Positions 14,614-21,383 of a stretch of DNA of 64,000 nucleotides are shown in pieces. Positions within the stretch are counted from its first letter, which is position 1, and each line of letters starts with the position of its first letter. Source of the stretch: Citromicrobium bathyomarinum (GTDB lineage: Bacteria; Pseudomonadota; Alphaproteobacteria; Sphingomonadales; Sphingomonadaceae). The DNA lies in NCBI RefSeq assembly GCF_021021475.1, contig NZ_JAINWL010000002.1, forward strand, positions 1 through 64,000. The letters are read 5' to 3'. The notes below the pieces were generated by a model, which saw only the letters and a program-made list of their open reading frames with translations, was not told the DNA's origin and searched no databases. The position numbers were made by a program, and so were the translations under genes.

Positions 14614-17600
14614 ATGAACTTCCGCAACATCTCCGCCTGGTCGATCCGCAACCCGGTCATTCCGCTGGTCTTCTTTACTGCGCTATTGCTGGCGGGTCTG
14701 CTCAGCTTCAGCCGGATGGACGTGGTCAACAACCCGGAGATCGAATTCCCTGCGGTCAACGTCAATATCTCGCAGCCCGGCGCGGCGCCGACGGAGATCG
14801 AGAACCAGATAACCCAACTGGTCGAATCCGCGGTCCGCTCGATCAACGGCGTGAAAAACATCAATTCGACCGCGTCGGAAGGCAATTCCAGCACCTTCAT
14901 CGAATTCGAGATCGGCACCGATCCGAATGATGCGGTGTCCGAAGTGACCAACGCGATCAATACGGTTCGCGGCTCGCTGCCCGACGGAATCCTCGAACCA
15001 CGCGTTTCGAAGGAAGAGATTTCCGGAGGTTTCCTGGGGATCTACGCGGTCGAAGCCGACGACATGACGCTGGAGCAGCTCAGCTGGTTCATCGACGATG
15101 TGGTGGCCAAGCGCTTGCTCGGCGTGGAAGGCATGGCCGAGGTCAATCGCTTCGCGGGGGTCGATCGCGAAATCGAGGTGATCCTCGATCCCCAAGCCAT
15201 CCAGTCCTACGGAGTCACCGCCAGCCAGTTGAACGGTGTGCTGCGGCAGAACAACCTCAATGCCGCAGGCGGTGCAGCCGAGGTTGGTGGCACGCGCCAG
15301 TCTGTGCGCGTGCTGGGCAATAGTCAGGACGCCTATGCCCTTTCGCAGCAGCAGATCCAGCTCGGCGACGGGCGCACGATCAAGCTCGCCGATGTTGCGA
15401 CCGTGCGCGACGGCTATTCCGAGCAGACCTCGATCAGCAAGGTCCGCGACAAGGAAGTCGTCAACTTCGCCATGTCGCGTGCCAAGGGCGCGTCCGATGT
15501 TTCGACCTTCCATGACGCGCTTGAGGAAATCGAGAAGATCGAGGCGGAAAACCCGGGCGTCCACTTCATCCAGCTGTTCAACACGGTGAAGTATACCGAG
15601 GAACAGTACGAGAGCTCGATGGCGATGATGATCGAGGGCGCTTTGCTCGCGGTCGTGGTGGTGTTTTTCTTCCTGCGCGACTGGCGCGCGACGTTCATTT
15701 CCGCAGTTGCTATCCCGCTCTCGGCGATCCCGACCTTCTGGTTCATGGATCTGCTCGGGTTCAACCTGAACTCATTATCTTTGCTGGCGCTCGCGCTGGT
15801 GGCAGGCGTGCTGGTCGACGATGCGATCGTGGAGATCGAGAACATCGTCAGACACATGCGAATGGGCAAGGACGCCTACGAGGCGTCGATCGATGCGGCG
15901 GATGAGATCGGTCTGCCGGTGGTCGCGACCAGCTTCTGCATCGTCGCGGTCTTCCTGCCTGTCGGCCTGATGCCGGGCATTTCCGGACAGTTCTTCAAGA
16001 ACTTCGGGATCACCGTGGTGGTTGCGGTGCTGATGTCGCTGGCGGTCGCCCGCATGATCACGCCTATGCTCGCGGCCTACTTCCTGAAGTCCAAGGGCCA
16101 TGCCAGCCATGGTGAGGGCCCGATGATGGACCGCTACATGGGCATCCTCCACTGGACGCTCGAACGTGGCAAGATGCTCCGTCGTCGTGAAGGCATCGAA
16201 CCCCCGAAAAAGCGGTTTGCCTACCTGCCGGCGCTGCTGGTGACGGCGCTGGTGCTGATTGCGGTGACCGCCGTGGCCTTCTTCGGCGTGAACGGCGCGC
16301 TGAGCGGGCTGGGTCTTGCCGAGAAGGTGGGGGGCGCGGTCGCCTCTTCACCCGAGTCCGTGGCGGGCACATTCTATAACCGGATCGTTGGGATTGTGCA
16401 GATGGCGCTGGCCGCCGCGATCGCCTTCGCCGCCGGCTGGATCGTGCTCAAGCTGCTCGGCTTGCTGAGCGCGGTGTTCGGCCCGCGCGCCCGCGAAGTG
16501 TGGCGCTATCTCGAGGCGCGCTTCTACGACCATCGCGTGTGGATGCTGATGATCGGCTATTTCGCGCTGCTTCTGACCGTGCAGCTGTTCATGAGCGTGC
16601 CCGGCCAGTTTCAGCCGAATGTCGACAGCGACAACAGCCAGGTCCAGATCGAAATGGTCCCGGGTACGACGCTGGAAGATACCGAAGCGGTCGCAGACCG
16701 GGTCGCCACGCTACTGTACGAACAGCCCGAGGTGGAGCGTGCGCTGGAGCGCGTGCGGATGGGCAGTGCGACGATCTACATCACCTTGTCGCCCGATCGT
16801 GAACGAACCTCGATCCAGTTCGAGCGGCAGCTCGCGCCCCTGCTTGCCACCATTCCCGACGCCCGCGTGCGCTTCCAGTCGCAGCAGGGCGGCGGTGGCG
16901 GGAGCGGCCGTGACATCACCGTGATGCTCGCCGGATCGAATCCCGAAGTATTGCAGGAAACGGCATCGCAGCTGGTCGAGCAGATGAAGGGGCTGAAAAC
17001 CATTGTCGCCCCGCGCATCAACGCCGACCTTTCCCGACCCGAGTTGATCATCGAGCCCCGCCCCGATCTGGCCGCCGATCTCGGCGTCTCGACGATCGCG
17101 CTGAGTCAGACGATCCGGATCGCGACTCTGGGTGAGATCGAGCAGAACGCGGCGAAGTTCTCGCTGTCGGATCGCCAGATTCCGATCCGCGTGAAACTGC
17201 CCGAAGCCTCGCGCGAGAGCCTGACCACGATCGAGAACCTGCCAGTGCCGACCCTTCGCGGGGGGACCGTTCCCCTCAGCCGGGTCGCAGATATCCGGTT
17301 CGGTTCGGGGCCGACCGCTATCCAGCGCTATAACCAGAGCCGCCGCATCCTGGTCGGTGCCGACCTCGCCGAAGGCGTCGTGACGGGCGAGGCGCGCGCG
17401 CAGATCGAACAGTTGCCGGTGCTGCAGGATTTGCCTGCGGGTGTGACGCGTGATGCCGTGGGCGAGGAAGAAATCCAGAACGAGCTGATGACGAACTTCG
17501 CGATCGCGGTTCCGACCGGTGTGTTGCTGGTCTTCGCGGTGCTGGTGCTGCTCTACAAGCGTCTGATGAGCCCGCTGGTCAACATGACCAGCCTTGCGCT

Positions 17601-18087
17601 CGCGCCGCTGGGCGGCATCTTTCTGGTCTGGCTGGTCGGACAGCCGCAATCGATGCCCGTCTATATCGGCGTGCTGCTGTTGTTAGGGATCGTGTCAAAG
17701 AACTCGATCCTGCTGATCGACTTCGCGATCGAGGCGATGGCCCATGGTCAGGACAAGATGGATGCCATCATCGATGCGGGGCACAAGCGCGCCCAGCCGA
17801 TCGTCATGACGACCTTTGCGATGACCGCCGGGATGATCCCCACTGCGCTTTCGGGCGTGCTCGGATCGGGCGATGGGGCATGGCGCGCGCCAATGGGCAC
17901 CATGGTGATCGGCGGGCTGGTGGTTTCCACGCTGCTGACCCTGCTCATCGTGCCGGCTGGTTTCAGCCTTGCCGACGGGTTCGAAAAGCGGGTCGGCCCC
18001 GCCTTGCGCAAGATGCTCTCGATCAACGCCGCCTCGAAGGAAGGAGCCGCGCTCACCCCCGGTGTCGCGGCCCCATCCTCCGATTAA
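14614..18087 (+). CDS. RND (AcrB/HAE1-like) efflux permease with a membrane insert
   Basis: A 1157-residue proton-driven inner-membrane exporter. The first half has the porter domain and transmembrane helices 1-6, with the proton-relay Asp pair in LVDDAIVE at residues 402-403, matching AcrB Asp407/408. The second half repeats the plan. Typical homologues have about 1040 residues. The extra length lies between the halves (about residues 525-635), where two additional hydrophobic stretches (KRFAYLPALLV... and ...QMALAAAIAFAAGWIVLK) and a charged linker are inserted before helix 7. It is coupled to the adaptor by a five-base gap. No outer-membrane channel gene is adjacent. Confidence 0.92.
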   Translation: MNFRNISAWSIRNPVIPLVFFTALLLAGLLSFSRMDVVNNPEIEFPAVNVNISQPGAAPTEIENQITQLVESAVRSINGVKNINSTASEGNSSTFIEFEIGTDPNDAVSEVTNAINTVRGSLPDGILEPRVSKEEISGGFLGIYAVEADDMTLEQLSWFIDDVVAKRLLGVEGMAEVNRFAGVDREIEVILDPQAIQSYGVTASQLNGVLRQNNLNAAGGAAEVGGTRQSVRVLGNSQDAYALSQQQIQLGDGRTIKLADVATVRDGYSEQTSISKVRDKEVVNFAMSRAKGASDVSTFHDALEEIEKIEAENPGVHFIQLFNTVKYTEEQYESSMAMMIEGALLAVVVVFFFLRDWRATFISAVAIPLSAIPTFWFMDLLGFNLNSLSLLALALVAGVLVDDAIVEIENIVRHMRMGKDAYEASIDAADEIGLPVVATSFCIVAVFLPVGLMPGISGQFFKNFGITVVVAVLMSLAVARMITPMLAAYFLKSKGHASHGEGPMMDRYMGILHWTLERGKMLRRREGIEPPKKRFAYLPALLVTALVLIAVTAVAFFGVNGALSGLGLAEKVGGAVASSPESVAGTFYNRIVGIVQMALAAAIAFAAGWIVLKLLGLLSAVFGPRAREVWRYLEARFYDHRVWMLMIGYFALLLTVQLFMSVPGQFQPNVDSDNSQVQIEMVPGTTLEDTEAVADRVATLLYEQPEVERALERVRMGSATIYITLSPDRERTSIQFERQLAPLLATIPDARVRFQSQQGGGGGSGRDITVMLAGSNPEVLQETASQLVEQMKGLKTIVAPRINADLSRPELIIEPRPDLAADLGVSTIALSQTIRIATLGEIEQNAAKFSLSDRQIPIRVKLPEASRESLTTIENLPVPTLRGGTVPLSRVADIRFGSGPTAIQRYNQSRRILVGADLAEGVVTGEARAQIEQLPVLQDLPAGVTRDAVGEEEIQNELMTNFAIAVPTGVLLVFAVLVLLYKRLMSPLVNMTSLALAPLGGIFLVWLVGQPQSMPVYIGVLLLLGIVSKNSILLIDFAIEAMAHGQDKMDAIIDAGHKRAQPIVMTTFAMTAGMIPTALSGVLGSGDGAWRAPMGTMVIGGLVVSTLLTLLIVPAGFSLADGFEKRVGPALRKMLSINAASKEGAALTPGVAAPSSD

Positions 18088-18109
18088 GCAAGCTGCTTGT
18101 ATGGAGCGA

Positions 18110-18268
18110 TCAGTGGCACAAGAAGATCTGTGCGACCCATTCGCTGTAGGTCCGGGCTTCGCGGGTGCAGATATCCGGCACGTCTTGCTGCGCCATCGCA
18201 AGAGTCGGGGTCGTCACAGCGCCGAGTACGAGAGCGCAAGCCAGGCTTTTCTTGATGATTTTCGACAT
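18110..18268 (-). CDS. 52-residue predicted secreted peptide
   Basis: A small gene easily missed by length cut-offs. The ATG at 18268 has AAGGA eight bases upstream. The product has a textbook signal peptide: MSKIIKK, then a hydrophobic core, then TLAMAQ with a likely AxA-type cut. The mature peptide is about 25 residues (QDVPDICTREARTYSEWVAQ then IFLCH) and has only two cysteines, 23 apart, which could form a disulfide. It is convergent with the RND permease and divergent (47 bases) from the DUF445 gene. No family is recognised. The ribosome site and signal peptide together make coding very likely. Confidence 0.7.
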   Translation of the reverse strand: MSKIIKKSLACALVLGAVTTPTLAMAQQDVPDICTREARTYSEWVAQIFLCH

Positions 18269-18315
18269 CCGGTGTTTCCTTATACCAGCACGGAGATAGG
18301 TTCGTCTCCGCGTCG

Positions 18316-19587
18316 ATGTATAAGCGAATGAGAGACAACCGGCTGATTGTAGGATCGTCTTTGGACCAAACCCGGCAGATCCGCCGCACCGCCACCGGCC
18401 TGCTTCTCGCCATGGCGGGCGTGTTCGTGGTGGCGGAGATCAACCTCGATCTACATCCGTTCTGGGGCTACCTGCACGCCTTTGCCGAAGCGGCTATGGT
18501 TGGCGGGCTGGCCGACTGGTTCGCGGTGACCGCGCTGTTCCGCCATCCGCTGGGCGTACCGATCCCCCACACCGCGATCATTCCGCGCAAGAAAGACCGG
18601 ATTGCGGACACCATGGCGCAGTTCCTTCGCGCCAACTTCCTCACCCCATCGGTCGTCGCGCGGCGGATGCGGCGGACGAATGTAGCGGCGAACGCGGGCG
18701 AGTTCCTGGTCAACCGCGAAGGCGGCGAACGCTCGCGCTTCATGGGCGGCGGCGCGGAGCTGGCGGCAGAAGTGCTCGAATCGCTCGACCCCGAACGGCT
18801 TGGCCTGCGGGTGCGCGCGGGGCTCGCCAGCCAGTTGTCCAGAATTGAGCTCGCTCCGCTGCTTGGCAATCTGCTCGAAAACCTGATCGCCGACGGCCGC
18901 CATCGTCCGCTGCTCGACGGCCTGATCCGCTGGGCCGGGCTGACGTTGGAGGACAACGAGGAGGCGGTGCGCGAGATCATCCGCAGCCGCGCCAATTCGG
19001 TGCTGCGCTGGACCGGGCTCGACAGCCGTATCTCCAGCTCCGTGCTCGACGGAGTGTACCGCCTGCTGGCCGAAGTGCTGGTCGATCCCGACCACCCGAT
19101 GCGCGGCAAGATCGACGCGGCTTTGATCAAACTCGCGACACAGCTCAAGACGGATCCGGAGATGCAGGCCAGGGTCGAGGCGGTGAAGATGGACCTGCTG
19201 GAAAACCCGGCGCTGGCCGACTGGTGGATGGGCGTGTGGGAACGGATGCGGCGTTCGCTGATTGCCCGCGCGCGCGATCCGAACAGCGGACTGGGCAACG
19301 ACCTGCGCGAGGCTCTGCGCGAACTGGGTAAGGCCTTGCAGGACGATCCGCGCCTCCAGCGGCAGATCAACCGCTTCGCGCGACGTACGGCTGTCGGGAT
19401 GACGTCACGCTATGGCGCGCAGATCGTCGCGCTGGTGTCCGACACCGTGAAGCGGTGGGACGCGGGCACGGTGACCGACCGGATCGAGAGCGCGGTGGGC
19501 CGGGACCTGCAGTTCATCCGCATCAACGGCACTCTGGTGGGCGGGCTGGTCGGCGTGACGCTGCACGCGATCACGCAGGCGTTCTGA
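18316..19587 (+). CDS. DUF445 family membrane protein (YjiN-like)
   Basis: A 423-residue protein with one or two N-terminal transmembrane helices (about residues 28-60), then a large helical domain. The signature NAxAEAxMVGGLADWFAVTALFRHPLG-type stretch is present (FAEAAMVGGLADWFAV), as in DUF445/UPF0754 proteins. A C-terminal hydrophobic helix (TLVGGLVGVTLHAI) may re-enter the membrane. ATG 18316 and ATG 18328 are both possible starts. The function of the family is unknown. It stands alone between the small secreted peptide and the convergent etf operon. Confidence 0.85.
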   Translation: MYKRMRDNRLIVGSSLDQTRQIRRTATGLLLAMAGVFVVAEINLDLHPFWGYLHAFAEAAMVGGLADWFAVTALFRHPLGVPIPHTAIIPRKKDRIADTMAQFLRANFLTPSVVARRMRRTNVAANAGEFLVNREGGERSRFMGGGAELAAEVLESLDPERLGLRVRAGLASQLSRIELAPLLGNLLENLIADGRHRPLLDGLIRWAGLTLEDNEEAVREIIRSRANSVLRWTGLDSRISSSVLDGVYRLLAEVLVDPDHPMRGKIDAALIKLATQLKTDPEMQARVEAVKMDLLENPALADWWMGVWERMRRSLIARARDPNSGLGNDLREALRELGKALQDDPRLQRQINRFARRTAVGMTSRYGAQIVALVSDTVKRWDAGTVTDRIESAVGRDLQFIRINGTLVGGLVGVTLHAITQAF

Positions 19588-19610: not shown

Positions 19611-19644
19611 AAAAAAAGCCCCGCCACAAGGGCGGGGCTCTCCT
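19611..19644 (-). terminator. rho-independent terminator of etfBA
   Basis: On the minus strand a nine-bp G+C stem (plus coordinates 19617-19625 and 19631-19639) with a five-base loop is followed by a seven-base U run. The 5' foot of the stem is AGGAG (complement of 19640-19644), a feature shared with two other minus-strand terminators in the window. It also lies just after the convergent DUF445 gene. Confidence 0.9.
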
Positions 19645-19667: not shown

Positions 19668-20597
19668 TCAGAGCTTTTCGGTCAGTTCCGGCACTGCCTT
19701 GAACAGGTCCGCGACCAGGCCGATGTCCGCGACCTGGAAGATCGGGGCGTCCTCGTCCTTGTTGATTGCGATGATGGTCTTGGAATCCTTCATCCCGGCA
19801 AGGTGCTGGATCGCGCCCGAGATGCCGATCGCGAAATAGGCTTCCGGCGCGACGATCTTGCCCGTCTGGCCGACCTGGTAGTCGTTGGGGACATAGCCCG
19901 CATCGACCGCCGCACGGCTCGCGCCGATCGCAGCGCCCAGCTTGTCGGCCAGCGGCGTGATGTATTCCTCGAACGTCTCCGCGTCCTTCAGCGCACGGCC
20001 GCCCGACACGACCACGCTCGCGCTGGTCAGTTCGGGGCGCTCGCTCTTGGCGAGTTCGCGGCTGACGAATTCGGAGGTGCCCGCATTGCCGGTGGTCTCG
20101 ACCGTCTCGACAGTGCCGCTGCCGCCTTCGGCTTCGGCCTTGTCGAACGCGGTGCCGCGCACGGTCAGGACCAGCTTGTCCTCAGTGCTTTCGACCGTGG
20201 CGATCGCGTTGCCCGCGTAGATCGGGCGGGTGAAGGTCTTGTCGCCTTCGACGCTCATCACTTCGGAAATCTGCATCACATCGAGCAGCGCGGCGACGCG
20301 CGGCGCGATGTTCTTGCCGGTGGTGGTCGCGGGCGCGACGAAGGCGTCGTGATCGGCCATCAGCTTGGCGGCGAGCGGCGCGATATTCTCCGCCAGCATG
20401 TCCTTACAGGCGGCGTTGTCCGCAAGGTGGACCTTGCCCACGCCTGCGATCTTCGCGGCGGCATCGGCCACGCCCGCGCAGTCTGCGCCAGCGACCAGCA
20501 GGTGCACTTCGCCGAGCTTGGACGCGGCGGTGACGGCAGCCAGCGTCGCGTCCTTCACTTCTGTGTTGTCGTGTTCGACCAGAACCAGAGTTTTCAT
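19668..20597 (-). CDS. etfA: electron transfer flavoprotein subunit alpha
   Basis: A 309-residue subunit of the FAD-containing ETF heterodimer, which carries electrons from acyl-CoA and other dehydrogenases to ETF-quinone oxidoreductase. The N-terminal Rossmann-like half is followed by the FAD-binding C-terminal domain, with the motif VVSGGRAL, then [11 protein letters not shown] and [10 protein letters not shown], which contact FAD. Length is typical. It lies 39 bases after etfB on the same strand and ends at a strong terminator, forming a two-gene operon. Confidence 0.95.
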
Positions 20598-20636: not shown

Positions 20637-21383
20637 TCAGGCGATCCCGAGCGCCTTGACCTTGGCGACCAGCGCATCGACATCCTCGACCTTTTCGCCA
20701 GCCTGACGGACCGGCGGCTCGGAGACCTTGAGCGTCTTGAGGCGCGGCGCGGTATCGACGCCGAAATCGGCCGGGCTCTTGGTGTCGAGCGGCTTCTTCT
20801 TGGCCTTCATGATGTTGGGCAGCGAGGCGTAGCGCGGCTCGTTCAGGCGAAGGTCGGTGGTGACGATCGCGGGCAGGGTCAGCTTGACCGTTTCGAGGCC
20901 GCCATCGATCTCGCGCTTCACGGTGATCGAATCGCCTTCGAGCGTGATCGTGTTGGCGAAGGTGCCCTGCGGCCGGTCCAGCAGTGCGGCGAGCATCTGG
21001 CCCGTCTGGTTGCTGTCGTCCGAAATCGACTGCTTGCCCAGCAGTACGAGGCCGGGCTGTTCTTCCTCGACGATCGCCTTGAGGATCTTGGCGACGGCGA
21101 GCGGCTCCAGATCTTCATCGGATTCGACAAGGATTGCACGGTCCGCACCCATGGCGAGCGCGGTACGCAGCGTTTCCTGCGCCTTTGCCGGGCCGACCGA
21201 GACCGCGACGATCTCTTCGGCATTGCCCGCTTCCTTGATCCGGATCGCTTCTTCGACCGCGATCTCGTCGAACGGGTTCATGCTCATCTTGACGTTGGCG
21301 AGGTCGACTCCGGAGCCGTCCGCCTTGACGCGGGGCTTCACGTTGTAATCGATCACCCGCTTGACGGGCACGAGTATTTTCAT
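20637..21383 (-). CDS. etfB: electron transfer flavoprotein subunit beta
   Basis: A 248-residue ETF beta subunit that binds AMP and docks partner dehydrogenases. It starts [14 protein letters not shown] and carries the family segment [16 protein letters not shown]. The recognition loop with the conserved Leu and AMP site lies near residues 180-200. It is first in the etfBA operon. The 240 bases upstream, shared with the divergent exoD, must hold both promoters; I could not pick out confident -35/-10 pairs there. Confidence 0.95.

Follow-up and report, generated by a model that had tools for sequence, protein, structure and literature searches.

In Citromicrobium bathyomarinum (Sphingomonadales), an open reading frame (ORF) of 52 codons lies between the gene for a resistance-nodulation-division (RND) efflux permease and the gene for a DUF445 protein, and runs antisense to both. 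The locus, at positions 18,110 to 18,268 of the 64,000-nucleotide stretch analysed here (the window; contig NZ_JAINWL010000002.1, positions 1 to 64,000), raises the question of whether so short a frame is a gene, and, if so, what its product would do and how it came to lie there. Comparison across genomes shows, at the level of sequence, that the ORF codes for protein and belongs to a small family, whose members we detected nowhere but at the RND/DUF445 junction of some Sphingomonadales; by the same comparison this is a new, rarely carried family of two-cysteine peptides with predicted export. The best explanation overall, to which we assign a probability of about 0.6, is that of a horizontally exchanged gene for an exported, disulfide-closed peptide that would act on a target in the cell envelope.

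Homologues at the RND/DUF445 junction

Read on the minus strand, the ORF translates to MSKIIKKSLACALVLGAVTTPTLAMAQQDVPDICTREARTYSEWVAQIFLCH (52 amino acids); the plus-strand reading of the same positions does not give this peptide. It stands tail-to-tail with the permease gene (22 bases from its stop to the permease stop at 18,087) and head-to-head with the DUF445 gene (47 bases from its ATG to the listed DUF445 ATG at 18,316), and the open frame contains no ATG, GTG or TTG upstream of the ATG assigned here. An earlier note on this DNA had described an ATG with AAGGA at a good distance, a signal peptide with AMAQ cleavage and a two-Cys mature part of about 25 residues, convergent with the pump gene and divergent from DUF445. 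Gene order and strands agree with this description, as do the position of the motif and the predicted processing of the product, with 26 residues in the mature part (Table 1).

Junctions were examined in 204 genomes: 10 from the genus of the host, 59 of the 60 from a second genus, and 135 others; the sixtieth second-genus genome (G640) gave only a partial DUF445 match and was left out. An RND match was present at 202 of these loci and both borders at 181. ORFs were accepted if they combined an ATG, a Shine-Dalgarno motif, a signal-peptide-like N terminus and a length of 35-80 amino acids, the signal-peptide criterion being our own and drawn up after peptides had been seen. Seven two-border junctions contained such an ORF (7/181, or 7/204 loci surveyed), namely our locus, G162 and G006 in the same genus, and G622, G634, G445 and G642 in the second, and all seven ORFs lie antisense between RND and DUF445. 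The remaining 174 two-border junctions have a gap of at most 119 bases in 157 cases, the largest being 355; gaps of 193-355 nt without a rule-passing ORF occur in other genera at L216, L259, L271, L273, L276, L280 and L282. No ATG ORF at the other 23 loci passed the rule, and the one TTG ORF that passed a relaxed version of it (L218) looks spurious.

Three of the second-genus sequences (G622, G634, G642) were first detected by inspecting this junction only. The fourth, G445, emerged as a weak match (E 0.017) from an order-wide search and was then placed antisense between RND and DUF445. In single pairwise comparisons the C. bathyomarinum peptide matches that of G622 with E 4e-13 (38% identity over 53 residues), and G445 matches G622 with E 1e-6. 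Four peptides have the core I-C-x6-[FY]-x2-W-x2-[QK]-x-F-x-C in common, with a cysteine spacing of C-x16-C; in G642 the spacing is C-x17-C and only 1-4 of 19 core positions match the others without gaps. The combination of junction position and strand, signal peptide, C-x16/17-C and a second cysteine that is the last or last but one residue is found in our peptide, G162, G006, G622, G634 and G445, while G642 fits the family in place and architecture and is weak by sequence. Judged by these similarities, the second genus would hold two plain homologues, one clear but weaker one, and a doubtful one (G642).

Within the host genus, the peptide is identical in G162, of the same species, and intact at 94% amino acid identity in G006, which corresponds to Alteriqipengyuania abyssalis NZ-12B (Erythrobacteraceae), the one copy among the matches listed in genome contigs. 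The gene of G006 differs from ours by eight base changes, of which three are nonsynonymous and all within the signal peptide; only two, both synonymous, lie in the mature part, and the 47 bases up to the DUF445 ATG are identical. The earlier note had proposed conservation of the mature part and of the frame in relatives as a check, and this holds where the gene exists; the gene itself is missing in seven of the ten genomes of the genus, where 35-83 bases separate the RND stop from the aligned part of DUF445 and where, in every case, a possible DUF445 start overlaps the RND stop. A second copy in the C. bathyomarinum genome was not found with the whole peptide (to E 10) or the profile described below, and a DNA search gave short chance matches only.

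A coding gene or a chance frame

The absence from most of the genus would be expected if the ORF were a chance open frame, a reading that we consider very improbable. Applied to the whole window, the ORF rule returned two ORFs, the peptide ORF and one antisense inside DUF445 at 18,614; the reversed window gave none, and 20 simulated windows together gave one (mean 0.05). Five of five distinct peptide genes have a Shine-Dalgarno motif at usable distance and, by our own rule, five of five distinct peptides have a signal-peptide-like N terminus; homologues occupy the equivalent place in another genus. We judge the peptide gene to be coding because the closest second-genus pair, G622 and G634, differs mainly at third codon positions, the pattern expected of coding DNA: over the last 20 codons the differences at positions 1, 2 and 3 number 3, 1 and 15 (binomial p 6e-5).

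Our gene and that of G622 differ at 4, 6 and 14 positions (p 0.010), and the chance of three or fewer nonsynonymous changes among the eight separating it from G006 is 0.037 under neutrality. Nonsynonymous (dN) and synonymous (dS) divergence by the Nei-Gojobori method was 0.025 and 0.154 for this last pair; for G622 and G634 dN was 0.12 with dS undefined, and their signal peptides, aligned without gaps, gave 0.55 and 1.09. Other pairs speak against a coding interpretation: our gene against G634 gave 6, 6 and 10 (third 10/22; p 0.16, not significant), and no clear third-position excess was seen for G445/G622 (9, 8, 14; third 14/31) or for our gene and G445 (8, 11, 11; third 11/30). The match of G642 to G445 is likewise weak (E 0.003, single comparison), and G642 was missed by the profile.

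Searches beyond the junction

That profile (A3) was made from the mature parts with G642 left out, because the five-sequence alignment misaligned it. Among 397 genomes of the family it gave matches at E <=0.05 in 13, strong ones only in the three of the host genus, the best match beyond that genus having E 3.1e-4 over 13 residues. Three strong matches in the 60 second-genus genomes are all rows of the profile itself, and of seven matches at E <=0.05 in 255 genomes of the class only our own was strong. None of these searches gave a strong match away from the junction.

Searches with the full-length peptide or alignment returned numerous weak matches that owed their scores to signal peptides. 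The frames of 11, 14 and 16 such matches were examined and proved to be N-terminal parts of longer proteins, antisense frames and other short frames, among them L073, L078 and L081 with a cysteine pattern that resembles the motif by chance; the exception was L074 (G445), retained because it lies at the RND/DUF445 junction. No match was accepted in Pfam, NCBIfam or PHROGs (best E 0.037, 0.043 and 0.12, respectively), no relative was found among viral contigs searched with A3 or among phages and plasmids searched with our peptide only, and nothing better than E 3.7 was found among sequences of the Protein Data Bank (PDB). The papers listed in a limited literature search included none on this peptide.

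Predicted product and gene features

The N terminus begins with positive charge, followed by a hydrophobic core and by A-M-A ahead of Q27. The hydrophobic stretch suits a cleavable signal peptide with an A-x-A-like site, and could also serve as a retained anchor. Taken across the family, these features strongly suggest that the signal peptide directs export by Sec and that signal peptidase I cuts the product to a mature peptide of 24-27 residues, whose two cysteines are almost constant in spacing. As the cysteine pair is conserved in a peptide predicted to be exported, the two residues would form one disulfide outside the cytoplasm.

Table 1. Features of the junction (window positions).
Feature	Position	Strand	Description
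Peptide gene	18110..18268	-	52 codons and stop; intact in G162 and G006; syntenic relatives in four second-genus genomes
Shine-Dalgarno motif AAGGA	18277..18281 (reads 18281-18277)	-	8 bases 5' of the peptide-gene ATG
Predicted Sec signal peptide	18191..18268	-	Residues 1-26; cleavage between AMA and QQ; from the sequence and an author-made rule
Mature peptide	18113..18190	-	26 residues; C34 and C51 (C-x16-C); invariant against G006; core kept in G622, G634 and G445
RND efflux permease (AcrB/AcrD/AcrF family), left border	14614..18087	+	Pfam PF00873, E 7.7e-214
DUF445 protein gene, right border	18316..19587	+	Pfam PF04286, E 5.6e-116
Junction tract, seemingly imported by recombination	18000..18475 (borders approximate)		From 90-nt identity windows against sister G203

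The 5' leader of the gene (18,263-18,328, minus strand) has a predicted folding z of -2.56, with 3 of 200 shuffles as good. The fold pairs the Shine-Dalgarno stretch GUAUAAGG with an upstream CUUAUAC and is a possible means of translational control; the leader is unchanged in G006. A shared 5' hairpin was not seen, the leaders of the other four distinct peptide genes being unremarkable (z -0.71, 0.85, -0.49 and 0.84), and Rfam gave no match at gathering score within the window. Elsewhere in the window, a G+C-rich inverted repeat at 19,617-19,639 (9-base arms, 5-base loop, beside an A run, read by eye) sits between DUF445 and two minus-strand genes (19,668-20,597 and 20,637-21,383), which we take to be electron-transfer-flavoprotein-like, and resembles a terminator of those genes.

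Exchange or repeated loss

The gene was probably exchanged at this one chromosomal junction, as far as sequence patterns can tell. In 90-nt windows, the last 900 nt of the RND gene are 63-81% identical to those of sister G203 in their first third and 84-91% in the next part, and identity drops at the 3' end, to 56% and then 40%. Because the opening third varies in comparison with each of the four loci examined, it is the 3' end of the gene that supports a mosaic. On the other side, the start of the C. bathyomarinum DUF445 gene shows 49-54% identity to that of the sister before rising to 86-97%, whereas it is 68-76% identical to L118 and L067 from other genera, both chosen as top matches in a protein comparison. 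The simplest reading is that the junction, from about 18,000 to 18,475, was imported through its conserved flanks. Homologous recombination through the flanking genes would move the peptide gene between lineages and would bring it to the equal place and strand.

An ancestral gene that was lost many times and never transferred would equally occupy the same place and strand in two genera, and a tree of DUF445 (78 of the 204 loci), which requires five changes in peptide presence, at least four of them forced by well-supported branches, counts changes and cannot tell gain from loss. Presence is somewhat clustered on this tree, with 9 of 500 label shuffles as low. We nevertheless regard loss alone as the less probable course, though one with an appreciable share of the probability: at many junctions without the peptide, a possible DUF445 start and the RND stop overlap in the sequence GTGA, and every loss would have to restore this overlap. 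The mosaic structure of our own junction also conflicts with it, as do the similarities of the peptides and their neighbours, which follow opposite trends (our peptide and G622 agree at 12/19 core positions with a DUF445 identity of 0.67, G445 and G622 at 7/19 with 0.89). Two points count against exchange. A donor of the tract was not found among the loci compared, and the G+C content of each of the five inserts (0.48-0.575), although below that of both flanks (0.557-0.665), is a weak argument, given that intergenic DNA is commonly lower in G+C.

Possible targets of the peptide

In the exchange reading, the least certain step is the last, in which the peptide, periplasmic or released, would bind an envelope protein of the producing cell. 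The adjoining RND pump is the first candidate, with the peptide as a modulator by analogy with known small partners of such pumps, and we put this forward tentatively. The earlier note had named a pump-associated factor, a signalling peptide and a bacteriocin-like molecule as candidate roles, which are weighed in turn here. AcrZ is a protein of about 50 residues. It is described as a partner of the RND pump AcrB (PMC7267776), and our peptide is like it in being small and associated, by gene position, with an RND permease; it differs in its predicted cleavable signal peptide and two-cysteine mature part, and its tie to the pump is adjacency. WatS1-WatS5 of Methylomonas, tied to the RND pump WatABO, are unannotated intergenic polypeptides of about 50 amino acids, with one predicted transmembrane domain each in WatS1-4; they are under the pump's regulator WatR, and overexpression of WatS1 was effective only with the pump present (PMC10355033). 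Ours shares with them its size, intergenic position and place beside an RND pump. It has a predicted signal peptide and two cysteines, neither of which is a term used in the available text of the WatS paper (PMC10355033), and as far as these sources go both AcrZ and WatS are membrane-embedded or predicted to be so, in contrast to the predicted form of our peptide.

The tie between peptide and pump is adjacency, in seven of seven cases. Several observations weigh against the envelope reading. Almost all members of the family have the pump and DUF445, and few have the peptide (7/204 loci), which is odd for a part of the pump. The peptide transcript would run opposite to that of the pump, and a consensus scan found neither a promoter nor a terminator for the peptide gene. 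The AlphaFold model is poor, with one helix at 41-50, a mean predicted local distance difference test score (pLDDT) of 66 and a predicted template modelling score (pTM) of 0.33; a fold search with it gave no PDB matches, and the hydrophobic moment of the C-terminal half, examined for an amphipathic helix, is unremarkable in four of the five peptides.

The uneven distribution among close relatives, the rapid sequence change and the signs of horizontal exchange would also suit a released competition peptide, Sec-secreted and bacteriocin-like, that spread by recombination, its producers being either resistant by nature or shielded by the pump. Sec-dependent small disulfide bacteriocins are small, Sec-exported and have a cysteine pair, as our peptide is predicted to, and their mature peptides are usually, though not always, cationic. 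The net charge of our mature peptide is -2 and that of the five distinct peptides -2 to +1, with four at -1 or -2, values that argue against a classical cationic antimicrobial peptide or bacteriocin. The alphaproteobacterial host is a further difference from those bacteriocins, and the 22 and 47 nt that flank the gene in our insert are too little for a separate immunity gene there; other frames of more than 30 amino acids do occur in the inserts. With none of PHROGs, Pfam and NCBIfam giving an accepted match either, we consider a competition peptide unlikely. Sponge isolates screened for antibiotics include Alteriqipengyuania and Qipengyuania, and the available text of that study does not mention this peptide (PMC9318849).

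That the peptide carries signals between cells, with a receptor in the envelope, is in our view quite improbable. Size, export, the cysteine pair and sequence variation between lineages are consistent with it, and the top Pfam match of G622 is PhrC_PhrF, of Phr signalling, although at E 0.037 it lies below the cut-off and covers the signal-peptide part only. No sensor gene fits our insert, and we know of no established system of signalling by Sec-secreted disulfide peptides in this order.

Implications

Small secreted peptides of Gram-negative bacteria easily escape gene finders, and in this case it is the second-genus homologues that show the frame to be coding. The position of the peptide beside a conserved pump makes its function testable, and the presence and absence of the gene among close relatives provide a ready-made genetic comparison. 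Should the pump indeed be the target, the peptide would modulate it as the exported product of a horizontally exchanged gene, a type of modulator not met in our limited literature search. A bolder proposal, which we consider a long shot, is that the RND/DUF445 junction of Sphingomonadales serves as an exchange site for versions of one exported disulfide peptide, each retuning the neighbouring pump or tolerated by way of it; if true, lineages would have a transferable means of switching the specificity of an efflux pump.
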